DNA from: Rhodohalobacter mucosus
GTDB taxonomy: Bacteria > Bacteroidota > Rhodothermia > Balneolales > Balneolaceae
NCBI RefSeq assembly: GCF_003150675.1
Contig: NZ_QGGB01000003.1
Location: 124,001 to 188,000, forward strand
Direction of reading: 5' to 3'
DNA: 64,000 bases
In this document: piece after piece, positions 16,458-41,810 of the stretch
Layout of the letters: the number at the start of each line of letters is the position of its first letter
Numbering within the stretch: position 1 is the first letter of the stretch
Program-made: the position numbers and the translations under genes
The notes under the pieces: generated by a model
What the model was told of the DNA's origin: nothing
The model's database searches: none
What the model saw: only the letters and a program-made list of their open reading frames with translations

Positions 16458-17879
16458 ATGTCATTAAAAAAATTCACGTCTATCCTGTTTGTTCTTCTAA
16501 GTGTGATATCCTTTTCAGGATGTATTCAGTTCAATGAAAGCAGTACGTCTCAAACGGTAGCGATCACGGGAGCCACGCTTTTTGATGGCAACGGTGGAGA
16601 GCCTGTAACCCAAAGTGTGGTTGTGGTTAGCGGAGGAGTGATTGATTGCATCGGTGCGGAGGGCGACTGCTATATTCCGACAGGAGCAGAGGTGGTTGAT
16701 GCCTCCGGTCAATTTATCATGCCCGGCATGATCGACGTACACATGCACTTTTTTCAGACCGGCTTTTTTGACAGCCGTCCGGATGGAATGGACCTGAATG
16801 ATACCTATCCGTTTCCCGAAGTGGCCGCCTATCAGCAGAAGAATCCGGAACGGTATTATGAGAGTTATCTCTGCTCCGGAGTTACCGGCGTATACGATGT
16901 TGGCGGAGCCTCCTGGTCCATAGCTTTTCAGGATCATGCCGAAAACCATCCCATGGCTCCGCACGTGGCTGCAGCGGGACCCCTGATTACACCGGCCCAG
17001 GGTGCACCATTCGATCTGCCCTCCGATAAAGTGCTGGTGCCGCTCAATACCGTGGATGACGGAATCAAAACTGTTCAGTACCTGTCGGAACTGGGAAGCA
17101 CAGGCATCAAATTCTGGCAGCTTGATGCAGGGGATGAAGCATTCATGAGCAGGGTGGAAGCGGCGGCAGAAGAGATCGAAAGGAGAGGAAACCAGATGAT
17201 TGCTCATGCCACCACTCTTGAACAGGCCAAAGCCGCACTTCGGAACAATACCAAACTGCTGGTGCACAGCGTGAGTGACACGGAAGTAGACAATGAATTT
17301 ATTGAACTGGCCCTGGCTAACGGAACCGTTTATAATCCCACGCTAATTGTGAGCAGCGGATATCTCCTGGCCTACAGGGCCGCTGCGGGAATTGAGCCGT
17401 TTGAGATTGTGGATCCGAACGGCTGTGTGGATGATAAAACCAGGGAGCTGATGGAAACCGCGTCGCAGTTCAGCGATAACCCAAGATTTACGGATGGGTT
17501 TCTGAACAGAATCCGGAATTTTGACCCGGAGACAAACCGTGTGAATGAGATTGATGAAATAAATCTGATGAAAGTATATGAAGCCGGCATTCCCGTTGCG
17601 GTAGGCACCGATGCGGGCAACCCCGGAACACTGCACGGTATCTCCATCTTTGACGAATTGGAGGCCATGCAGGATGCAGGCATACCGGCGGAAGATCTGA
17701 TCGTCATGGCTACCAAAAATGGTGCACAGGCGATGCGCCGCCTGGACGATTTCGGTACCCTTGAGGAAGGAAAACTGGCAAATTTATTGATTCTGAATCA
17801 GGATCCGTCTGAGGACATTTCGAATATGCGTTCAATTAAGGAGGTGATGGTGAAAGGGGCCTTTTTTAGTGAAAAGTGA
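16458..17879 (+). CDS. Amidohydrolase-family lipoprotein (imidazolonepropionase/prolidase-like)
   Basis: 473 aa with a lipoprotein signal ending SFSGC (Cys22). The amidohydrolase metal site is visible: His95 and His97 in DVHMHF, a Lys in the TGIKFWQLD strand, His in MIAHATT, His in LLVHSVSD and Asp in VGTDAGN. The closing VMATKNGAQAMRRLDDFGTLEEGKLANLLIL is characteristic of the family. Secreted members hydrolyse cyclic amides or X-Pro dipeptides; the exact substrate is unknown. A heptamer array starts inside its stop codon. Divergent from the Crp/Fnr gene. Confidence 0.9.
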   Translation: MSLKKFTSILFVLLSVISFSGCIQFNESSTSQTVAITGATLFDGNGGEPVTQSVVVVSGGVIDCIGAEGDCYIPTGAEVVDASGQFIMPGMIDVHMHFFQTGFFDSRPDGMDLNDTYPFPEVAAYQQKNPERYYESYLCSGVTGVYDVGGASWSIAFQDHAENHPMAPHVAAAGPLITPAQGAPFDLPSDKVLVPLNTVDDGIKTVQYLSELGSTGIKFWQLDAGDEAFMSRVEAAAEEIERRGNQMIAHATTLEQAKAALRNNTKLLVHSVSDTEVDNEFIELALANGTVYNPTLIVSSGYLLAYRAAAGIEPFEIVDPNGCVDDKTRELMETASQFSDNPRFTDGFLNRIRNFDPETNRVNEIDEINLMKVYEAGIPVAVGTDAGNPGTLHGISIFDELEAMQDAGIPAEDLIVMATKNGAQAMRRLDDFGTLEEGKLANLLILNQDPSEDISNMRSIKEVMVKGAFFSEK

Positions 17880-17926
17880 AAAGGCAAAAGGGAAACGTCA
17901 GACGTCAAACGTCAAATGTGAGACGG
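17878..17926. repeat. Degenerate 7-bp tandem array after the amidohydrolase gene
   Basis: Seven consecutive 7-bp units in one phase, for example CAAAAGG, GAAACGT, CAGACGT, CAAACGT and CAAATGT, starting in the stop codon of the amidohydrolase gene. The units share purine-rich positions 1-3 and a G at position 6. It belongs to the family of heptamer arrays seen at 18.0, 21.2-21.9 and 39.5-39.9 kb. Confidence 0.7.
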
Positions 17927-18024
17927 GAAGAACGATATGCGATTCGAGTCCTGAGTGGAGTCGAAGGGTGAGGTTTGGGATTGTCGATCTCAGAAGTACA
18001 TTTTTCCTTGAACCTTAACCGATA

Positions 18025-18059
18025 CAACTCAAAACTCAAAACTCAACACTCAAAACTCA
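18025..18059. repeat. 7-bp tandem array (AAACTCA) abutting the TonB-receptor stop
   Basis: Five in-phase heptamers: CAACTCA, AAACTCA twice, ACACTCA, AAACTCA. It ends 4 bp from the stop codon of the minus-strand TonB-receptor gene. Confidence 0.85.
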
Positions 18060-18063
18060 CTCG

Positions 18064-20328
18064 CTAAATCACAAGCCTCAGCGACACATACGGAAAAAAC
18101 GGCGACTGATCCACGCGTTGTAGTACGCTGTAGTCAAAATTGAAGATGTTGCTGCGATTGTAGAGGTTGATGGCCCCGGCCTGCGTCTCGAGTACCAGAC
18201 CGTTTTTTAACTGAATGTCGCGGCTCAGTGAAACATCCAGGCGGTGATAGGTTGGCATGCGTCCGTTATAGGGTTCACTGAAGAGAATGCGTGCCTGTCC
18301 GGGATCTGTTTTGGGGTTTTCAAAAGGCAAACGCAGAAAAAAGTCATACCCGAAGATCTCAGTGTAGGGTTTGCCGCTGCCAAACTCCCAGCGCGTATCC
18401 AGGTTGAAGCCGGCAAGCTCAAAACCCGCAGCCACATTCAGCTTGTGGCGCTGATCGTGCGCGGGTGAATAGGAAAAAACGGGTTCCTCAACCCAAGCTC
18501 CCAGATCGCCGCTCACTGCCTCATATTCCGATTTGGACCAGCCGTAAGATATGGTTGCGTAGTATGAAGATCGCTCAAGCATCATTTTTACATCAGCACC
18601 AAACGTAAGCCCTTCTGCCCGGGCCGTTTCGATCTCAATCCGGGGTTCCGGGTTCCATTTTGAAACAGGGACATTATCATGCTGCTTAACATATCCTTCA
18701 GCGTTGAACGATAAGAAATTGCCAAGCCTTTGGTTGACTCCAATCATACCGTGAAGGGATGACGGAAGAGGGTTGTCAATTTCAACGGGCTGGTAAACCA
18801 TAAATACGGTGCCTGCGTCCCGTTCATCACTGATTCCGGAGTGGGTTTGCACGTACCTGCCTGCCGCCAGTGAGAGTTGTGACCGGTCACTCTGACCCGG
18901 CTGCCAGGAAATGCGAATCCTGGGTTCAAAGGTGATGGGCATATCGAGCGTGAACTGTGAGGAGACGCCGGGATAGAAGGTGAGGCCCGTTGCGGGTTCC
19001 CATTCCGTAGCCAGATACATGTGTGTCACCGGCATCTTACGGTTCACGCTTTCAAGTGAAATAAATCTGGAAAAACGTTCATCCAGCTCAACGGAATAGC
19101 TTTTTAAATTAAAGCTGAACCCCAGATCCACCGGCAGATTCATGAGCTGCTCACGGATATCCACTTTCAGGTATACCTGGCCAATAGAAGAGAAACGCTC
19201 GCGCTGTCCCGGTGATCCCTCTTCATTGGCATACCGGGTGTAACCTGCCGAAACATTGAACGGATGGCTGAAAAATTCGGAATATCCAAGGCAACGGGCA
19301 CCAGCTGCCACATTGGTCCACTTGTGATCCACGTTGCGAAGCGGGACGATTTCACCGCTGTCGTAGGTGTACAGGCCTGTAATGCTGCATGTGATATTCT
19401 CTCCCTGAATGGTATACCGGCCCGTAAAATCTCCAAACCGGATATTCTGATCCTCGCCGGTCAGGCTACTGCCGGTCCGGTCAATCAGCGAGTAGCGCCC
19501 GCTCAATAAAAAGGAGGAACGGTCGGTTTTAAAAGGGCCCTCAGCCTGAAGTGCCGTCATGTAGGGGCTGACCGACGCCGCGGCCCTGTGGTCTCTCATA
19601 TTACCGGGACGCAGTGCAATATCAAGAACTGCGGAGGTTGCATCGTTAAATTTCGGGCTGAAACCGCCGGAAAACAGATCGGCATCCTGAATCAGATCGT
19701 CCGGAAAGGCGGAGAAGAGGTTGGATATGTGAAATGGTTTTACAATCGGCATATTATCTACAAGCACCAGGTTCTGGTCGGGCGTGCCTCCGCGGATGTA
19801 GAGATCTCCTCCGCGATCGCCGCTGGTAATTACACCGGGGACGGTTTGTAAAAACGTAGCCAGGTCGCCTCCTGCCACAGGTGAAGGAGTTCGGGAAATT
19901 TGCCTGCTGGTTATCCGCTGCACGCCCACTTCACCCGTTGTTATATAGCGTTGCTCGATCACTGTGAGCTCACCGATCTCTCCGACAGCCGGATTCAGTA
20001 CGGCACGAATAATTTTTCGCTCGCCACCGGCAAAGGTGAGCAGTTCCGTGTAGGGTTCAAAGCCCACGTACGAGATTCTGAGCTCGAGTTCGTCACGAAC
20101 GGGCACATTCCGAATTTCACAGAGTCCGTCGCGGTCGGAGATGCAAAATAGCTCGGGAGCTTGTTCGGATCCCGGTTCTTCCAGAATCACCGTAGCCCCA
20201 ATCAGTGGAGTGCCGTCTTCGCCGTTCAGCGTAAGCACCCTGAGCAGTGCCCCGTCCTGTGCCTGAACGGCTTGAACCGTCAAAGTATAGAAAATAACAG
20301 AGAGCGCTATGGCAATTGTCTTCTTCAC
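18064..20328 (-). CDS. TonB-dependent outer-membrane receptor
   Basis: 754 aa, starting at a GTG. A signal peptide (about residues 1-23) is followed by a carboxypeptidase-regulatory-like domain (GTPLIGATVILEE, residues 38-110), a plug domain (about 125-235, with RGGTPDQNLVLVDNMPI) and a 22-strand barrel ending in an aromatic-rich strand. It would import a large or scarce ligand through the outer membrane using TonB energy. The gene follows a DUF4249-type lipoprotein by 13 bp, so they form a two-gene uptake operon. It lacks SusD and is shorter than SusC proteins, pointing to a siderophore/metal or small-molecule ligand rather than a glycan; this is inference. Confidence 0.93.
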   Translation of the reverse strand: MKKTIAIALSVIFYTLTVQAVQAQDGALLRVLTLNGEDGTPLIGATVILEEPGSEQAPELFCISDRDGLCEIRNVPVRDELELRISYVGFEPYTELLTFAGGERKIIRAVLNPAVGEIGELTVIEQRYITTGEVGVQRITSRQISRTPSPVAGGDLATFLQTVPGVITSGDRGGDLYIRGGTPDQNLVLVDNMPIVKPFHISNLFSAFPDDLIQDADLFSGGFSPKFNDATSAVLDIALRPGNMRDHRAAASVSPYMTALQAEGPFKTDRSSFLLSGRYSLIDRTGSSLTGEDQNIRFGDFTGRYTIQGENITCSITGLYTYDSGEIVPLRNVDHKWTNVAAGARCLGYSEFFSHPFNVSAGYTRYANEEGSPGQRERFSSIGQVYLKVDIREQLMNLPVDLGFSFNLKSYSVELDERFSRFISLESVNRKMPVTHMYLATEWEPATGLTFYPGVSSQFTLDMPITFEPRIRISWQPGQSDRSQLSLAAGRYVQTHSGISDERDAGTVFMVYQPVEIDNPLPSSLHGMIGVNQRLGNFLSFNAEGYVKQHDNVPVSKWNPEPRIEIETARAEGLTFGADVKMMLERSSYYATISYGWSKSEYEAVSGDLGAWVEEPVFSYSPAHDQRHKLNVAAGFELAGFNLDTRWEFGSGKPYTEIFGYDFFLRLPFENPKTDPGQARILFSEPYNGRMPTYHRLDVSLSRDIQLKNGLVLETQAGAINLYNRSNIFNFDYSVLQRVDQSPFFPYVSLRLVI

Positions 20329-20341
20329 GAACAGTGTTTGT

Positions 20342-21154
20342 TTATTGAGACGCGTCTATAGGGATGGCCAGCGTATCGGCATAGAATCCGCCGAATTGCC
20401 GTGTGGTTTGCAGAATATTGGTCAGGTCCTCATTCAGTTTTTCATAAAAACCGGGTGAGTAGTGTGCTATGGCAACATAGATATTTCCTCTTGTAAGAAG
20501 GGAAGAGCATACACCAAATGTGCTTGCGATCCCCTGAGCTGTAATAAGCGGATTTACGGTGATACTGACCCGGTTCGTGTAGGTGGATGGCCCCAGTTCA
20601 ATCAATCTTCCCCATCTCCCTTTTTGGTCAGGCGTATCCGGTTCCAATCCAAATCGAATAACAAGTGTGCCGCCGTTCATTGGGTCAAAAACCAGGTTTA
20701 ATGGTGTGGTGCAGGCATCGTTTTCCCTGTTTACCTGCGGCACCGGAAGGGTGGGAGTGACAGTTTCAAGTTCTACCAGGTCGCCGTTCGAATTTTCCAC
20801 TCTGAGCAGATAGGGAGTATCGGGAACCACACCGTCACTGACCTGAAATGTGTGAAGATACACCCCTTCAAACTCACGAACGGTGCTGCCCAGCGTGGTG
20901 CTGACACCCGAACGCAGATTTTGAAGTGTAACCACTGCATCCAGGTCTTCGGTGGCTTCTAAAGTAAAGGGGGCATTCAGGTCTCTAACACGGATATAGC
21001 TTTTCTCCTCCAGTAGATCCAGGGTTCCGTGGATGGAGAAGGTGCCGTTGTCGGGGCCGGATGGGTCAAACGAATTGTCGCAAGCGATAAACAGAAAGGG
21101 TGTCGCCACAACAAAAAGACCCCAAAAAAGAAAGCGGTTTACCGGAAGTTTCAT
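20342..21154 (-). CDS. DUF4249-type lipoprotein, partner of the TonB receptor
   Basis: 270 aa from the ATG at 21154 (a TTG three codons earlier also lies in frame). The signal peptide ends with FLFIAC, a lipobox, so the protein is anchored in a membrane. The body is predicted all-beta with VTLQNLRSGVSTTLG and TPYLLRVENSNGDLVELETVT, matching DUF4249 proteins that nearly always accompany TonB receptors in Bacteroidota. Its likely place is the outer membrane as an accessory or surface lid. It is the first gene of the operon. Confidence 0.85.
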   Translation of the reverse strand: MKLPVNRFLFWGLFVVATPFLFIACDNSFDPSGPDNGTFSIHGTLDLLEEKSYIRVRDLNAPFTLEATEDLDAVVTLQNLRSGVSTTLGSTVREFEGVYLHTFQVSDGVVPDTPYLLRVENSNGDLVELETVTPTLPVPQVNRENDACTTPLNLVFDPMNGGTLVIRFGLEPDTPDQKGRWGRLIELGPSTYTNRVSITVNPLITAQGIASTFGVCSSLLTRGNIYVAIAHYSPGFYEKLNEDLTNILQTTRQFGGFYADTLAIPIDASQ

Positions 21155-21224
21155 GCAAAACAATATACTGGTACTGAGTGTAAAAAAAATAGCATAATGA
21201 TGCGATGAGGGGGGCGAATTTCAG

Positions 21225-21252
21225 GTGGGTGGTTGTTCGTTGTTCGTTGTAG
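21225..21252. repeat. Short 7-bp array (GTTGTTC) upstream of the DUF4249-TonB operon
   Basis: Four in-phase heptamers: GTGGGTG, GTTGTTC twice, GTTGTAG. They are reverse complements of the CAACNNN-type units at 21335-21411, so the two arrays face each other across 80 bp. Confidence 0.6.
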
Positions 21253-21334
21253 ATAGGGTATTAAAATACTGATAAAAATTGACATAACTACGAAAAAATT
21301 AAAATTTTGCTCACGAGAATTCGGGACCTTTTGC

Positions 21335-21411
21335 CTTTTCAAAACTCAAGACTCAAGACTATTGACTACCAACCACCAACCTCTAACAACTAACTCAACA
21401 CTCAAAACTAC
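21335..21411. repeat. Degenerate 7-bp tandem array running into the VOC gene stop
   Basis: Eleven consecutive heptamers hold one phase: CTTTTCA, AAACTCA, AGACTCA and onward through CAACCAC-like units to ACACTCA and AAACTAC. The last unit overlaps the stop codon of the minus-strand VOC gene at 21408. Individual units drift but positions 3-5 (A-C-T/C) persist. Confidence 0.75.
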
Positions 21412-21839
21412 TTAGTCGTCGGCCCGCCCATTTCGGTAAACACACGGTCAACCGGCTCCCAGAGCTCTATCTTGTTGCCGAAGGGATCCATGATGTGCAC
21501 GAACTTGCCGTAGTCGTACTCGGTGATTTCATCCACAACCGTGACGCCATTCTCCCGGAACTGCTCAACGAGACCCTCAATATTCTGAACCCTGTAATTG
21601 ATCATAAATGGCTGTTCGGAGGGATTGAAGTATTCAGTATCTGCCGAAAATGGACCCCATTGCAAGTAATTGATTTCATCCGGACGATGGGCATTTCGGA
21701 ACTCAAAAGAGGAGCCATATTCGTTGATCGTAAGGCCGAGATGCTTTCCATACCATTCCCGAACTTTCTCAGGATTTTTCGTTTTAAAAAAAATGCCGCC
21801 GATACCGGTTACTTTGGGTTTCAGATCTTTTTGGTTCAT
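21408..21839 (-). CDS. VOC-family (glyoxalase-fold) protein bracketed by heptamer arrays
   Basis: 143 aa with VOC modules: VTGIGGIFFKTKNPEKVREWYGKHLGL at the N-terminus and a second unit ending VHIMDPFGNKIELWEPVD, where Glu in IELWEP is the conserved metal ligand of this fold. A glyoxalase/dioxygenase-type reaction or small-molecule binding is possible; the family is too broad for more. The start codon lies only 3 bp from a long TATTGAG array and the stop overlaps another array, so leader and tail of the mRNA are made of repeats and no Shine-Dalgarno site exists. Confidence 0.87.
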   Translation of the reverse strand: MNQKDLKPKVTGIGGIFFKTKNPEKVREWYGKHLGLTINEYGSSFEFRNAHRPDEINYLQWGPFSADTEYFNPSEQPFMINYRVQNIEGLVEQFRENGVTVVDEITEYDYGKFVHIMDPFGNKIELWEPVDRVFTEMGGPTTK

Positions 21840-21842
21840 TTT

Positions 21843-21932
21843 TATTGAGTATTGAGTATTGAGTATTGAGTATTGAGTATTGAGTATTGAGTATTGAGTA
21901 TTGAGTATTGAGTATTGGGTATTGGGTATTGA
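21843..21932. repeat. Long perfect 7-bp tandem array (TATTGAG) at the VOC gene start
   Basis: Ten exact copies of TATTGAG, two of TATTGGG and a partial copy, 90 bp in all. It starts 3 bp upstream of the ATG of the minus-strand VOC gene, so the leader reads as CTCAATA repeats. A perfect array of this length is expected to vary in copy number by slippage. Confidence 0.95.
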
Positions 21933-21934
21933 TC

Positions 21935-21962
21935 AGGCAAAAGGCAAAAGGCAAAAGGCAAA
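21935..21962. repeat. Second heptamer array (AGGCAAA), adjacent
   Basis: Four exact copies of AGGCAAA, two bases after the TATTGAG array. Unrelated sequence but the same 7-bp period. Confidence 0.85.
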
Positions 21963-22000
21963 AAAGCTAATGGGTTGGCAGATGACTCAATTCCTAAAGT

Positions 22001-22032
22001 ACTTAAACACCTTAACACATTAACACCTTTTC
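22001..22032. repeat. 8-bp tandem array
   Basis: Four in-phase octamers: ACTTAAAC, ACCTTAAC, ACATTAAC, ACCTTTTC. It lies in the 0.5-kb gene-free region between the VOC gene and the Gfo/Idh gene. Confidence 0.65.
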
Positions 22033-22181
22033 ACTGTCAGAACTAACATACTGTTGACCTGACACACTGTGAAATGACCAGTCCTTCTTCTGTACTAACT
22101 GATCTTTCCCGGAATCCCTCGATGCAATTCTCAGCGTTGTTCCAAACCTCGCCTCGGGATTATCCTTCTGTACTCTTATAA

Positions 22182-22228
22182 CCCCGCGCTTCGCACGGGG
22201 CTATTGATGTTTAACGCCTCCGGCGTTA
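22182..22228. repeat. REP-like double hairpin
   Basis: Two GC-rich hairpins 11 bp apart: CCCCGCGC/GCACGGGG (one mismatch, 3-nt loop) and the perfect TAACGCC/GGCGTTA (3-nt loop). The paired form resembles REP elements that are mobilised by RAYT-type transposases in several phyla, but no such gene is in the window. With the preceding 100 bp it may form one repeated unit. Confidence 0.6.
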
Positions 22229-22324
22229 GAGTCGTGGACATCTGCTAATTGGACATTGTAACTGAATTAGACTTCATGCTTTTTTGACTGTGTTTTTTGC
22301 AAAGCAATGCGTAAACAAACAAAC

Positions 22325-22366
22325 TTGCTCGGTTGCTCGGTTGCTCGGTTGCTCGGTTGCTCGGTT
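22325..22366. repeat. 8-bp tandem array (TTGCTCGG) after the Gfo/Idh gene
   Basis: Five exact copies of TTGCTCGG plus two bases, ending 3 bp before the stop codon of the minus-strand Gfo/Idh gene. As with the heptamers, the array abuts a stop codon. Confidence 0.9.
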
Positions 22367-36679: not shown

Positions 36680-37681
36680 CTAGTTGAAGAAGAAGAAAAT
36701 AATCGCCGCAATAACGATGAAGTTGGCAATACTGAGCGGCAGGAGTTTTGACCACCCCAGTTTCATCACCTGATTGTATTTAAATCTTGGGATAGTCCAG
36801 CGTACCCAGATAAAAAGAAAGATGAAAAATGCCGTTTTAGCGGTGAACACGGTAACATCCAGTATTCCCTTTAGCAATGGTGACAATTCCGGAAGCCAAT
36901 AGCCTGCAAACGGAAGGTGATAGCTTCCAAAAAAGAAAGTAACCATCAGCATGGAGTTGATCACGACATGCATATATTCGGCAAGGAAAAACATCCCAAA
37001 CTTCATAGAACTGTATTCTGTATGAAATCCGCCGACAAGTTCCTGTTCGGCTTCCACCAGGTCGAAAGGGGTACGGTTACTCTCTGCAAATCCCGCAATG
37101 ATAAAAATGACGGCTCCAATGGGGTTCAGAAAGACGAACCACCAGTTCTCCTGGGCCGCGGCAACGTCTACCACGCTCAGCGAACCCACAAATATGATTA
37201 CGGAAGCAACAGCCATTCCGAGCGGCAGTTCATAACTAATCATCTGTGCAGCAGCCCGAAGCCCTCCGAGCAGGGAGTATTTGCTGTTTGATGCCCAGCC
37301 GGCAAGGGTTACTCCGTAAACTCCCAGTGAAGCTACAGCCAGAAGGTAGAGAACGCCCGCGTTGATATTTGTTGCATAGATGCCCTCGCCAAAAGGGATT
37401 ACGGCAACCGTAAGCAGTGCCGTTACAACAGGTATCATGGGTGCAACGGTGTGCAGAAAGCGGTTGCCGTGGATAGGTGTGACGTCCTCTTTGAGGATCA
37501 GCTTTACCACGTCGGCAATGGGCTGCAGAAGTCCAAGAGGTCCCACGCGGTTTGGCCCCACACGATTCTGAATAAAAGCGGCAACCCTGCGCTCTGCGTA
37601 CACGGTAATTGCCGCTGAATTAAGAAGCATGAACAGGGCAAGCCCCATGATGATGTATGATGTAATGGTTACTTCTACCAT
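36680..37681 (-). CDS. nuoH: NADH-quinone oxidoreductase subunit H
   Basis: 333 aa with eight membrane helices, the membrane anchor that contacts the quinone-binding site of complex I. Diagnostic segments: ERRVAAFIQNRVGPNRVGPLGLLQP, IPFGEGI, LLGGLRAAAQMISYELPLG and FAESNRTPFDLVEAEQELVGGFHTEYSSMKFGMFFLAEY. The acidic residues in these loops belong to the E-channel. Last gene of the operon in this window; nuoI would normally follow, but a terminator comes instead. Confidence 0.97.
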   Translation of the reverse strand: MVEVTITSYIIMGLALFMLLNSAAITVYAERRVAAFIQNRVGPNRVGPLGLLQPIADVVKLILKEDVTPIHGNRFLHTVAPMIPVVTALLTVAVIPFGEGIYATNINAGVLYLLAVASLGVYGVTLAGWASNSKYSLLGGLRAAAQMISYELPLGMAVASVIIFVGSLSVVDVAAAQENWWFVFLNPIGAVIFIIAGFAESNRTPFDLVEAEQELVGGFHTEYSSMKFGMFFLAEYMHVVINSMLMVTFFFGSYHLPFAGYWLPELSPLLKGILDVTVFTAKTAFFIFLFIWVRWTIPRFKYNQVMKLGWSKLLPLSIANFIVIAAIIFFFFN

Positions 37682-37744: not shown

Positions 37745-39478
37745 TCAGGATTTAACGGCCGGCCGGACAGAATCAAGCTGAATGCCCAACTGTTCATCCA
37801 TTGCCTGATAGCTTACACCCTCAAGAGCTTTAATCACGGTTGCGGCTTCATCCAGAATATCACGGCCGGATTCGTAGCTGTAATCGCTTAACCCGGCTTC
37901 GGACGCAACTTCGGTAAGAATCTTCCACAATGGCATACAATCCACTTTATTCTCCTCTGTAATCCAATTGTCAAAATTGGTTCCATAGCGGTCAAGGCGT
38001 CCTTCCGACATCTCAAAATCGATTCGCCTGTTTGTATACTTGGTCTCTTTTGCAGGGAGTGTTCTCTGTATTCTGCCATCCACGTTTACGTAGCTCGCAG
38101 CATGTTCAGCCGCACACGTTATTGGAACCACCAGATCGGCTGAGCGTGTGGTATCTGAGTGATTGGTTGCAAACGAAACCAGGTACTTGTCATCCAGTTG
38201 ATCGGCTGTAATAATGCCGCGGTCAATCAGATGATCGCTCAATACAATTACCACCTCGCACTTCTCAATCATTTGAGAGATTTCATCCGCACTTTTTTCG
38301 GTTAGCCCAAGAATACGGCAGCCGTTAGCGTTAGGGGCCAGGTCATCCGTGATCAGAAAATCGTCGCCTTTGCCTTCTTCTTTATGCGGTGTGAATACGG
38401 GTTCGTTCAGCCCCAGAAGCGATGCAAATCGGGACAATACATAATTCTCCTCAACCGAGGCATGAGGGCTGCCGATTACGGCTACCTTATCACGGTCGGT
38501 TTTTTCGATCTGTTCTGCTATGGTTACAATCGCGTTGCTCCAGGATGAGTGAACCTGCTCGTTATCCAATTTTTGATAAGGTCTGGATATGCGATTTTCA
38601 TTAAATAGCCTGTAGGCTTCACGCCCTTCATCCGGCATCCAGTGATCGTTTACCTCACCGTTGTATCGCGGCGTAATCCGGAGAACCAGGTTATCGCGTG
38701 TCCAGAGATCAATGTTGCAGCCCTTGCCGTTTGTGACATCAATGCTTGGTGTTTGATTCATCTCCCAAACCCTGGCTCTGAAACGGAAATCTGCAGATGT
38801 GAGCGCACCCACAGGGCAAAGATCCACGGTATTTAATGAGTAAGGATCGTCAAATTCTCGGCCAGGCGCTGTAATCGGATAGTTTTTATCACCGCGCTTG
38901 GTAATGGTAAGCTGATGGGTTTCACTTATTTCATCGGTAAAACGAACACAGCGGGTACAGTTGATACACCGCTCTGCGTCGAGTACAACGCGCGGGCCTA
39001 GCTGCACTCTTTTAGGCTTGTGGACTTTCTTTACTTCAAAACGGCTTCCTTCCGGACCGTATTTGTAGGTTTGTATCTGGAGCGGACATTCACCCGCCTG
39101 ATCGCATATCGGGCAGTCAAGGGGGTGGTTGATCAGAATCAGCTCAAGATTATCTTTCTGCGCCCGTTTCACAAGGTCGTCGGTTTCCTGGGTGTGAACC
39201 ACCATCCCGTCGGAAATCATCAAATTGCAAGAGGTCTGAAGCTTCGGGAACCACCGGATAACGCGGTCGCCTTTCTCATCCAGTTCATACTCGCCGGATT
39301 CGCGGTCTTTCACGGGCTGACCCACTTTCACCATGCACTGACGGCAATTGGCCGGTGCGGTCATCGAAGGGTGATAACAGAAAAACGGAACTTCCTTTCC
39401 CTGGTCCTGAATAAACTGAAGAAGCCTCTGTTCTCCTTCATATTCGTATCGAATTCCGTCTATAAATACTTCAGGCAT
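37745..39478 (-). CDS. nuoG: NADH-quinone oxidoreductase subunit G
   Basis: 577 aa, shorter than most NuoG proteins (about 680-900). Cys34, 45, 48 and 84 form the 2Fe-2S N1b site; His118 with Cys122, 125 and 131 the N5 site; Cys171, 174, 177 and 221 the N4 site. The following molybdopterin-oxidoreductase-like domain is present but shortened, lacking the final portion. It carries electrons from NuoE/F toward the quinone site. The N7 cluster Cys set is not seen. Separated from nuoF by an inserted four-helix-bundle gene. Confidence 0.95.
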   Translation of the reverse strand: MPEVFIDGIRYEYEGEQRLLQFIQDQGKEVPFFCYHPSMTAPANCRQCMVKVGQPVKDRESGEYELDEKGDRVIRWFPKLQTSCNLMISDGMVVHTQETDDLVKRAQKDNLELILINHPLDCPICDQAGECPLQIQTYKYGPEGSRFEVKKVHKPKRVQLGPRVVLDAERCINCTRCVRFTDEISETHQLTITKRGDKNYPITAPGREFDDPYSLNTVDLCPVGALTSADFRFRARVWEMNQTPSIDVTNGKGCNIDLWTRDNLVLRITPRYNGEVNDHWMPDEGREAYRLFNENRISRPYQKLDNEQVHSSWSNAIVTIAEQIEKTDRDKVAVIGSPHASVEENYVLSRFASLLGLNEPVFTPHKEEGKGDDFLITDDLAPNANGCRILGLTEKSADEISQMIEKCEVVIVLSDHLIDRGIITADQLDDKYLVSFATNHSDTTRSADLVVPITCAAEHAASYVNVDGRIQRTLPAKETKYTNRRIDFEMSEGRLDRYGTNFDNWITEENKVDCMPLWKILTEVASEAGLSDYSYESGRDILDEAATVIKALEGVSYQAMDEQLGIQLDSVRPAVKS

Positions 39479-39487
39479 CGTTTCTGG

Positions 39488-39522
39488 ATTGATTATTAAT
39501 TATTTATGATTGATTATTTTTT
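39488..39522. repeat. AT-rich 7-bp array on the nuoG side of the inserted gene
   Basis: Five in-phase heptamers: ATTGATT, ATTAATT, ATTTATG, ATTGATT, ATTTTTT. It begins 10 bp upstream of the nuoG start codon. The repeated ATTGATT is the reverse complement of the AATCAAT units on the other side of the inserted gene. Confidence 0.6.
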
Positions 39523-39543
39523 CAATGTGCGACCTTAGATCAA

Positions 39544-39897
39544 TCAAGAATTTGTTTGTATTGTTTTTCTGGATGAGATAAAAATTGATGTCAATTCCCG
39601 AGCTTCAGCTATTAATGTTTCAACGTGTGTTATTGGTATCTGATTTTCATCGACCAGGAACTGAATCCAGAATTCAGATTCGTCAGCTTCTTCGATTACA
39701 GTACTAAGTTTAGCCGCAAAGGCTGCCCTGCTGTGTGCAATACAAGCAGCCCTGTAGTTCGCAGCCACCGATGTTCCGCATCTGATTAACTGATATCTAA
39801 TGTGTTTACCTAATGAGTTATTTGGCAAAACCAAAGCAACCTTAACGCATCTATGCGCAAACTGTTTGGTACGTTTTTTTAACTTTTCTTTATCCAT
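39544..39897 (-). CDS. Four-helix-bundle (23S rRNA intervening-sequence-type) protein inside the nuo operon
   Basis: 117 aa, all-helical, of the TIGR02436/S23 family first found encoded in insertions within 23S rRNA genes. Recognised by KKRTKQFAHRCVKVALVLPNNSLGKHIRYQLIRCGTSVAANYRAACIAHSRAAFAAKLSTVIEEADESEFWIQFL. The family forms pentamers and has no settled function; members are often in repetitive or mobile settings. Here the gene lies between nuoF and nuoG, bracketed by inverted heptamer arrays, and has the same orientation as the operon. Confidence 0.93.
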   Translation of the reverse strand: MDKEKLKKRTKQFAHRCVKVALVLPNNSLGKHIRYQLIRCGTSVAANYRAACIAHSRAAFAAKLSTVIEEADESEFWIQFLVDENQIPITHVETLIAEARELTSIFISSRKTIQTNS

Positions 39898-39943
39898 GAC
39901 CGATGTCTTGAGTTATTGCGGTAATTTCAATCAGTAATCTAAA

Positions 39944-39978
39944 CCACAATAATCAATAGTCAATCATAATTAATCAAT
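39944..39978. repeat. AT-rich 7-bp array on the nuoF side of the inserted gene
   Basis: Five in-phase heptamers: CCACAAT, AATCAAT, AGTCAAT, CATAATT, AATCAAT. The last base reaches the nuoF stop codon. In inverted orientation relative to 39488-39522. Confidence 0.6.
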
Positions 39979-41273
39979 TACGCAACTGCGTGAACCGACT
40001 TTTTGCACCTTGCTTCAAATTCGTCACGGAACCTTGTAATGGTATGGCGTACAGGCCATGCGGCTGCATCGGCCAGGGCACAGATGGTGCGGCCTTCCAT
40101 TTGGGTTGTGATGTCGAGGAGAAGATCCAGGTCTTTTATCTCGCCATCTCCATTTTTAATTTTCAGCATAATTTTTTCAAGCCATCCGGTTCCTTCACGG
40201 CACGGAGTGCACTGGCCACACGATTCATGATGATAAAAGTGGGTAATGCGCCATAGCATGTCCACCATATCCGTGTCCTCATCCATTACAACGAGTCCTG
40301 CAGTTCCAAGCATTGTACCCACCGTACGAAGCGAGTCACTATCCATTGAAATTCCATCAAGCTGGTCGGCGCGTACTACGGGTGTGGATGATCCCCCGGG
40401 TATCACTGCTTTAAGCTTTTTGCCATTTCGAATACCACCGGCCATATCATGTATCAGGTCGAGTACGGGTACGCCGGACGGCAGTTCATACACACCGGGC
40501 CTGTTAACGTGTCCCGAAATACCGTAAAGAATGGGGCCGGGATGGTTCTCAGCTCCAACGCTTTTAAACCAGTCTGCACCGCGGTTTATGACGCTCGTTA
40601 CATGCGCAAGTGTTTCAATATTATTGATGGTTGTGGGGCGTCCCCATAGGCCTTTCTGAGCAGGGAATGGAGGTTTGACGCGCGGATAGCCTCGTTTACC
40701 TTCAAGTGACTCAAGCATGGAGGTCTCTTCGCCGCAAATGTAGGCACCGGCGCCACCAGTTACATAGAAATCCACGCTGTAGTTACTGCCCAGGATATTT
40801 TTACCGATAAAGCCTTTTTCATAGGCATCCTCCAGGGCTTTCTCCATCATGCGGATGTATGCCTTATACTCTCCGCGAATATAGACGTAGATGGTTGTGA
40901 TCTCCATTGCATAGGCGGCAATAAGCGCACCTTCTATAAATGCATGCGGATTGTATTCAAAAATTTTCCTGTCCTTGAACGTGCCTGGCTCCGATTCATC
41001 ACCATTGCAAGCCAGATACCTCGGCCCGCCATCGGCAGGGGGCATGAACGACCATTTGAGGCCGGCATTGAATCCCGCACCTCCGCGTCCACGGATATTG
41101 GCTGCCTTGACCTCTTCGATGACGCTTTTTGGATTTTCCCATTTCTGCTTGTCGGTCAGTACGGATTTCAACCCCTCATAACCTCCGTTCTTGATGTAAA
41201 CATCAATCTTATGGAGATCCTTGATATTGGGGATCAGTACCGGTTCATAATTTTTCCAGTCTGCAGTGCTCAT
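39978..41273 (-). CDS. nuoF: NADH-quinone oxidoreductase subunit F
   Basis: 431 aa from the ATG at 41273 (an earlier in-frame ATG at 41279 adds two residues). NADH/FMN site: RGRGGAGFNAGLKW and a second Gly-rich loop GAGAYICGEETSMLESLEGKRGYPR. The 4Fe-4S N3 cluster ligands are in ESCGQCTPCREG (Cys354, 357, 360, numbered from 41279) plus Cys400. It oxidises NADH. The coding sequence abuts nuoE directly; the next gene on the strand is the inserted four-helix-bundle gene. Confidence 0.97.
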   Translation of the reverse strand: MSTADWKNYEPVLIPNIKDLHKIDVYIKNGGYEGLKSVLTDKQKWENPKSVIEEVKAANIRGRGGAGFNAGLKWSFMPPADGGPRYLACNGDESEPGTFKDRKIFEYNPHAFIEGALIAAYAMEITTIYVYIRGEYKAYIRMMEKALEDAYEKGFIGKNILGSNYSVDFYVTGGAGAYICGEETSMLESLEGKRGYPRVKPPFPAQKGLWGRPTTINNIETLAHVTSVINRGADWFKSVGAENHPGPILYGISGHVNRPGVYELPSGVPVLDLIHDMAGGIRNGKKLKAVIPGGSSTPVVRADQLDGISMDSDSLRTVGTMLGTAGLVVMDEDTDMVDMLWRITHFYHHESCGQCTPCREGTGWLEKIMLKIKNGDGEIKDLDLLLDITTQMEGRTICALADAAAWPVRHTITRFRDEFEARCKKSVHAVA

Positions 41274-41279
41274 TATCAA

Positions 41280-41810
41280 TTATTTTGCGTTGCGTAATGG
41301 CATGTCAATTTGTTCGTACTCCGGAACCTCACCTTTTCTGAGCGAATCAACCAGCTGATCTGCTTTCTCTTTGGTCAGGTGATTTACATAGGTATCGTTT
41401 GTAATCTGCAGCATCGGGGCATACCCGCAGGCACCCAGGCACTCTACCTCATTGAGTGAAAACATACCGTCGTCGGTTGTTTCGCCTTTTTTAATGCCAA
41501 GCTTGTCTTCCAGATGTTCCAGAATGTCATAACCGCCACACAATTGACAGCTCAGGCACGTGCAGACGTCGAGAACAAACTTTCCTTTCTCTTCCTTATA
41601 GTACTGCGTATAAAATTCAGCCACCCCGTGAACATGTGCTTCGGGCAGATCAAGCGTTTCAGCGACAAGCCGCTGCACGTCAGGATTTACATGGCCAAAC
41701 CGATTCTGTGCAACCCAGAGCACAGGTAACGTTGCCGGCATTACTTCCGGGAACTTGGCCTTGATTTTTTCAATTTCTTCGAGGTCTTCTTTTGTAAATT
41801 CGTATGCCAT
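41280..41810 (-). CDS. nuoE: NADH-quinone oxidoreductase subunit E
   Basis: 176 aa. The thioredoxin-like 2Fe-2S domain (cluster N1a) has Cys83 and Cys88 in VCTCLSC and Cys124 and Cys128 in VECLGACG, the C-x4-C/C-x3-C pattern; additional Cys85 and Cys91 are not usual ligands. N-terminal helices follow the family (PEVMPATLPVLWVAQNRFGHV). Pairs with NuoF. Confidence 0.97.
   Translation of the reverse strand: MAYEFTKEDLEEIEKIKAKFPEVMPATLPVLWVAQNRFGHVNPDVQRLVAETLDLPEAHVHGVAEFYTQYYKEEKGKFVLDVCTCLSCQLCGGYDILEHLEDKLGIKKGETTDDGMFSLNEVECLGACGYAPMLQITNDTYVNHLTKEKADQLVDSLRKGEVPEYEQIDMPLRNAK

Follow-up and report, generated by a model that had tools for sequence, protein, structure and literature searches.

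Genes of the S23/IVP family are known mainly as insertions in ribosomal RNA genes. To our knowledge, bacterial genomes very commonly contain these 'four helix bundle' genes, for which no function is known. In Rhodohalobacter mucosus, one of them lies between nuoF and nuoG, with an array of heptamer repeats on either side, within the 64,000-nucleotide stretch of DNA analysed here (the window; contig NZ_QGGB01000003.1, positions 124,001 to 188,000). Is this gene an old neighbour of the nuo genes, or did it enter the operon together with its repeats, and if so, as what kind of unit? The features of the locus are these, in the order of transcription, with the whole insert last.

41280-41810, minus strand: nuoE, operon context (TIGR01958)
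39978-41279, minus strand: nuoF, the operon gene upstream (TIGR01959, 593 bits)
39947-39978: upstream arm, on the nuoF side, an imperfect heptad array reading TTGATTAATTATGATTGACTATTGATTATTG in the transcript (TRF, 4.6 copies of 7 bp, 68% match)
39544-39897, minus strand: S23/IVP four-helix-bundle gene, 117 aa, here called class A (PF05635, TIGR02436, AlphaFold model)
39488-39518: downstream arm, on the nuoG side, ATTGATT on the plus strand and AATCAAT in the transcript (TRF, 4.4 copies of 7 bp, 79% match)
37745-39478, minus strand: nuoG, the operon gene downstream (Fer4_Nqo3, NADH-G_4Fe-4S_3 and Molybdopterin; TIGR01973 at 380 bits, which is below its cut-off)
36680-37681, minus strand: nuoH, operon context (PF00146)
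39479-39977, minus strand: the whole insert from the nuoF stop to the nuoG start, 499 bp, closed in the RNA fold by a stem that the two arms form

The window protein belongs to the S23/IVP family, since it scores above the curated cut-offs of both Pfam (PF05635, E=6.6e-11, 42.8 bits against 33.8) and NCBIfam (TIGR02436, E=4.7e-18, 65.4 bits against 24) and has the four-helix-bundle fold. Its AlphaFold model (pLDDT 96) finds its best PDB matches in the S23-family structures 2rld and 2gsc, while Foldseek also finds Avd, alone and in the ribonucleoprotein of diversity-generating retroelements (4dwl, 8ub7), with a TM of about 0.75-0.8, less close than the S23 structures. S23 proteins form pentamers, as do Avd proteins, and the work of Avd involves RNA. 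The domain matches bear out the preliminary description of this DNA, which had placed an S23/IVP-family gene between nuoF and nuoG; its figure of 700 bp for the distance between the two nuo genes has to be corrected to 499 bp. The arrays that it described as mutually inverted (ATTGATT and AATCAAT) are indeed reverse complements, each of them an imperfect repeat in itself (79% and 68% match). They lie much where it had put them: the array on the nuoF side touches the stop codon of nuoF, and the one on the nuoG side ends 9 bp before the nuoG ATG.

How unusual is such a pair of inverted arms? A 464-kb sample of the R. mucosus genome gave 370 gene slots, with eight S23 genes among them, which we ranked by the best complementary match between the left and the right flank. 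The nuo slot came fourth, and its flank score of 16.5 is higher than every shuffle of comparable flanks at other loci (maxima 13 and 15). S23 genes occupy seven of the top 16 slots (hypergeometric p 5e-10). The genome has 15 PF05635 matches, and most of its other S23 genes stand between inverted arrays of other heptamers, whose sequence is specific to the site. In the flanks of 39 S23 genes of the genus that lie outside nuo, inverted complementarity is again twice that of shuffles. Other S23 genes with heptamer flanks, which the preliminary description had suggested looking for, were thus found by the dozen. The motif TGTAAGG occurs at 25 of these 39 non-nuo genes, against about 0.4 expected, and is usually followed at a fixed distance by a GGTTCATAC-like box; the nuo copy is without it. 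In its full form, TGTAAGG-N15/16-(G)GTTCATAC, it resembles a promoter and lies no more than 200 nt upstream of S23 (L001-L008, L039-L043, L045-L072); it may be an ECF-sigma promoter carried along by the cassette. At locus L001, S23 is followed by a thiolase ORF (from 1901) that starts within an ACTCAAG array (N-terminus MTQDSRLKTK), so the array seems to extend into the N-terminus of the thiolase.

The nuoF-nuoG junction also exists in an empty form. In eight order-level relatives from other families the gap is only 12-21 bp, which is the empty site that a comparison with relatives was meant to find. The gene is absent from these eight genomes, and the repeats are present wherever the nuo S23 gene is intact; an old fixed neighbour shared by all relatives and free of repeats, the outcome named beforehand as fatal to the idea of an insertion, is therefore not what we see. 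Among the 22 junctions that we read within the genus, three have an intact S23 gene (R. mucosus, G024 and G004), one has a frameshifted gene (G015), three have remnants, and 15 are empty. The remnants comprise an internally deleted gene (G021), a C-terminal scrap (G012) and a gene without its 5' half (G011). Heptads resembling the downstream arm are kept in six of the 14 testable empty spacers (per-spacer p < 0.02), indicating that many of the empty junctions in the genus are losses and not ancestral states. S23 also lies between nuoF and nuoG in Gracilimonas mengyeensis and in a Balneola MAG. In the Balneolaceae bacterium isolate CSSed11_50 (L143), nuoF and nuoG are 93% and 81% identical to those of the window, and the S23 protein is identical to that of G024.

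Given that the insertion is common to Gracilimonas and Balneola and that many of the empty junctions in the genus look like secondary losses, it is old and not a recent event. The simplest history is that the gene entered once, no later than the base of the Balneolaceae, and was then lost repeatedly. The S23 tree scatters the nuo copies, and a one-clade constraint is not rejected (AU p=0.29); because the copies are split in the tree, several independent entries at nuoF-nuoG are also conceivable. In the 28 genus genomes that we searched, class A occurs only at nuoF-nuoG, and no recent transposition of class A was seen among them. Where dS is unsaturated, dN/dS among the nuo S23 copies is 0.07-0.18, which points to purifying selection and to a protein that has been in use over long times. 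As an insertion, the nuo copy in the window is old and declining. A match to the whalefall-1 RNA (RF01762, 38.8 bits) was noted in G004, on the downstream side of nuoG (L026, 1421-1473).

Gain is visible at another site. Between folE and cysS, R. mucosus has an S23 gene with GGTTGCC arrays, while 18 relatives have clean gaps of 33-78 bp with neither arrays nor heptamers. The empty gaps being free of arrays, the gene and its arrays were gained jointly and recently. In the gap upstream of ispG, one or the other of two S23 lineages is found, depending on the species, and no split in the S23 tree of the genus is deeper than that between the two. In G004, G015 and G011 (L257, L261 and L252), the spacer before ispG has inverted or single arrays and no S23 gene.

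The nuo S23 alignment, used as query against GTDB genomes, gave 270 relatives, of which the best 80 were analysed. These best 80 of 270 come from about ten phyla or more: Balneolota, Bacteroidota, Thermodesulfobacteriota, Planctomycetota, Neomarinimicrobiota (Fidelibacterota), Poribacteria, Cloacimonadota, WOR-3, Ignavibacteriota, Lentisphaerota, Nitrospirota, and records labelled 'Deltaproteobacteria'. Their proteins are 56-71% identical to the window S23, a level that matches that of the nuo copies of the same genus in G024 and G004, which are 61-62% identical to it. Strong class-A copies number one or two per genome in those genomes from outside the genus that we searched in full.

By their differing neighbours, the 80 loci represent 58 sites, most of which separate genes that are transcribed together. 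The neighbours, for which our short gene names are a reading of Pfam domains, include leuC|leuD, pheS|pheT, ilvB|ilvN, gspE|gspF and nqrB|nqrC, as well as leuA|ilvD, cdsA|dxr, ruvX|def and a histidine kinase with a response regulator, so that S23 often stands between adjacent subunits or steps within one operon. Both neighbours are co-directional with S23 at 62 of 71 loci, compared with 105 of 159 control triplets drawn from mechanical ORFs and not from curated genes (p 7e-4), and the upstream neighbour is co-directional at 69 of the 71. Empty sites (nuoF-nuoG and folE|cysS) together with the same element at 58 sites are the marks of a mobile element.

The flanks of the 80 loci have a period of 7, and otherwise only of 14; the mean lag score is 17.6 versus 4.4 in shuffles, and all remaining lags between 3 and 15 stay close to background. 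Inverted complementarity between the two flanks has a median of 15, compared with 7.5 in dinucleotide shuffles, and at 50 of the 80 loci it is higher than in every shuffle, while similarity in direct orientation is far weaker. The arms of one locus match each other better than they match arms from differing loci (p 1e-12). Arrays are present in 78% of the gaps next to S23 and in 14% of the other gaps of the same loci, gaps being delimited by mechanical ORFs (odds ratio 21, p 1.7e-28). The heptad consensus, (A)TTGAnn with two loose positions, is the same in both arms. Typically, the left arm starts inside the upstream stop codon (median 2 nt before its end), and the right arm ends shortly before the next start codon (median 9 nt). 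As we read these positions, the arrays fill the permitted gap, for which growth by slippage up to the coding borders would suffice.

Heptamer arrays are not confined to S23 genes. In 464 kb of the R. mucosus genome we counted about 40 strong 7-bp arrays, the majority at a distance from S23 genes, compared with one to five arrays for any other unit length except 14, the double of 7. Only five of 50 arrays lie within 250 bp of an S23 gene. Arrays this common elsewhere mean that S23 cassettes are one user of them and not their sole context. Two inverted array pairs without a gene (AAGGCAA/CTTTTGCC, about 60 bp apart; G000:C2:9962-10105 and 313030-313149, L074 and L089) resemble MITEs, and positions 17871-22366 of the window hold a dense cluster, about 4.5 kb long, of differing 7- and 8-bp tandem arrays.

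The preliminary description had also likened the nuo insert to a VOC (glyoxalase-like) gene in the window (21408-21839). This gene takes third place among the 370 slots for inverted flanks, and its surroundings (21333-21963) show two nested heptamer families in mirror order, CCTTTTG then CTCAAGA on one side and TATTGAG then AGGCAAA on the other. The likeness holds for the geometry but not for the heptamers (TATTGAG and AGGCAAA versus CTCAAGA and CCTTTTG), which differ. The broader suggestion drawn from the two genes, that single-gene cassettes bounded by heptamer arrays enter operons, stands for S23, for which there are empty sites and dozens of flanked genes. As a rule for all heptamer-flanked single genes it is weaker, because arrays are common where there is no visible cassette gene.

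We think it probable, with considerable room for doubt, that the nuo insert is a copy of a mobile S23 cassette, itself mostly immobile by now. The cassette, of about 0.5 kb, would consist of one S23 gene with no recognisable promoter of its own between inverted (A)TTGAnn arrays. It would lodge between two co-transcribed genes of the same direction, reaching from the first stop codon to just before the second start, and S23 would be expressed by read-through of the host operon. After a single entry into the nuoF-nuoG junction, no later than the base of the Balneolaceae, purifying selection would have kept S23 functional in some lineages while it decayed in others by frameshift, truncation, reduction to an array scar or clean loss. 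S23, as a pentamer-forming relative of the RNA-binding Avd, may bind the heptad arms, and gene and arms together may form the unit that has spread between genomes, moved by an enzyme acting in trans or by host recombination. No recombinase or transposase is encoded within the cassette, and the intergenic DNA has diverged so far that a target-site duplication would no longer be visible. A reverse transcriptase (RVT_1) was searched for and is lacking in the R. mucosus genome despite its 15 S23 genes; being absent also from four class-A genomes of other lineages, it was rejected as the common mover.

Several other explanations deserve consideration. The arms could act in RNA, pairing in the nuo mRNA so that RNase III excises the S23 piece as an intervening sequence, with selection at the RNA level. 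The 507-nt insert RNA does fold better than 100 of 100 shuffles (z -3.5), and the MFE fold pairs both arms as a closing stem, as in an rRNA intervening sequence (IVS); the co-directional placement of S23 fits as well, as does the precedent of the Coxiella IVS, which combines an S23 ORF with a terminal stem of 28 bp, excision by RNase III and heptamer repeats (PMC4990558). We nevertheless consider this explanation unlikely. The arm mismatches comprise 34 G-U and 36 A-C types, with transversions dominant, and since G-U is no commoner than A-C in this test of modest power, selection for RNA pairing is not seen. No Rfam family matches at the S23 locus, and the R. mucosus 23S rRNA is uninterrupted. 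A doubtful possibility is that cassettes are exchanged at docking sites, the heptad arrays providing recombination homology by which S23 genes swap at one intergenic site. The ispG gap, with its two deeply split lineages and some species that have arrays only, would be accounted for in this way, although the pattern may also go back to an ancestor that carried both genes, of which different descendants lost different ones. The heptamers differ between sites of the R. mucosus genome, which limits homology, and the empty folE|cysS sites had no arrays to dock with.

The arrays could also be ordinary intergenic repeats that grow by slippage independently of S23, which would simply be found in permissive gaps. 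Such repeats are plentiful in the genome (about 40 strong arrays in 464 kb, with only 5/50 within 250 bp of S23), inverted pairs occur without a gene, and some 'empty' ispG spacers have arrays. This account has difficulty with the rank of S23 genes among the 370 slots (seven of the top 16, p 5e-10), with arrays that are specific to S23-adjacent gaps across phyla (odds ratio 21) and have one consensus in inverted order, and with the clean folE|cysS gaps, and we judge it improbable. Finally, it is hard to believe that S23 is an old native neighbour of nuoF and nuoG with coincidental repeats and no insertion at all. Gracilimonas, Balneola and several species of the genus do have the gene at this site, as they would with such a neighbour, but all order-level outgroups lack it, in most of the genus it has decayed or disappeared, the repeats are there wherever it is intact, and close relatives of its protein lie in other operons and phyla. 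The reading of the nuo insert as an old copy of an S23 cassette is therefore the one that we prefer, and the general idea of an S23 cassette is supported.

How does such a cassette relate to known systems? The closest are the 23S rRNA IVSs with an S23p ORF in Coxiella and Leptospira, which likewise have an S23 ORF, a length of about 0.4-0.5 kb and complementary ends able to form a closing stem; heptamer repeats are reported in the Coxiella IVS, and decay of the ORF between strains is another point in common (PMC4990558). In contrast, the nuo insert lies in a protein-coding operon, its arms are degenerate heptad arrays common to both ends and show no G-U bias, and its S23 gene is under purifying selection, whereas the authors of the Coxiella study think that S23p is not made (PMC4990558). 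An insertion within the R. mucosus 23S rRNA itself was ruled out, the 23S being continuous, with one match over model positions 1-2925; the S23 piece lies between nuoF and nuoG and not inside an rRNA gene. The four helix bundle proteins of TIGR02436/PF05635 (2rld, 2gsc) share sequence family and fold with the nuo S23, but they are families without a described mobile context, and the nuo S23 class is closely associated with gaps in operons and with inverted heptad arrays. With the Avd of diversity-generating retroelements it shares the four-helix-bundle fold; in place of the reverse transcriptase, template repeat and variable gene that stand next to Avd, the neighbours of the nuo S23 are nuo genes, and its own genome has no reverse transcriptase.

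Intergenic direct repeats of the heptamer TAACTGA are known from Beggiatoaceae, Cyanobacteria and some Bacteroidetes, and in the last a role in gene rearrangement has been suggested (PMC4679880). They too are period-7 arrays, but they are mostly direct and lie upstream of start codons, and neither an S23 gene nor an inverted partner array has been reported with them. Mobile elements that lack a recombinase, MITEs among them, are similarly short, with terminal inverted repeats and no transposase of their own. The S23 cassette differs from MITEs in having a conserved gene under selection, period-7 array ends that vary by S23 class, and no known parent transposon. In a literature search for which subscription journals were mostly outside the scope, we found no description of S23 genes between inverted heptamer arrays, nor of the link across phyla that joins one S23 class to inverted (A)TTGAnn arrays and to gaps in operons. 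This link is what most merits attention here.

We offer tentatively, as something we can imagine rather than expect, the stronger claim that S23 genes and inverted heptad arms form cross-phylum, recombinase-free mobile cassettes specialised in co-transcribed gaps, with S23 recognising the arms. In a more extreme variant, suggested by analogy with telomere repeats, the arms, which have the same heptad on both 3' ends, would be the product of a templated polymerase acting on an intermediate that is linear. If the stronger claim is true, rRNA intervening sequences would be one branch of a wider class of S23 cassettes. The link between S23, arrays and operons gives a concrete handle on whether S23 binds the heptads, whether the piece is excised from mRNA and whether it moves. 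Part of the puzzling intergenic heptamer arrays gains a context from it, and it would turn what has been an oddity of ribosomal RNA genes into a general type of mobile cassette.
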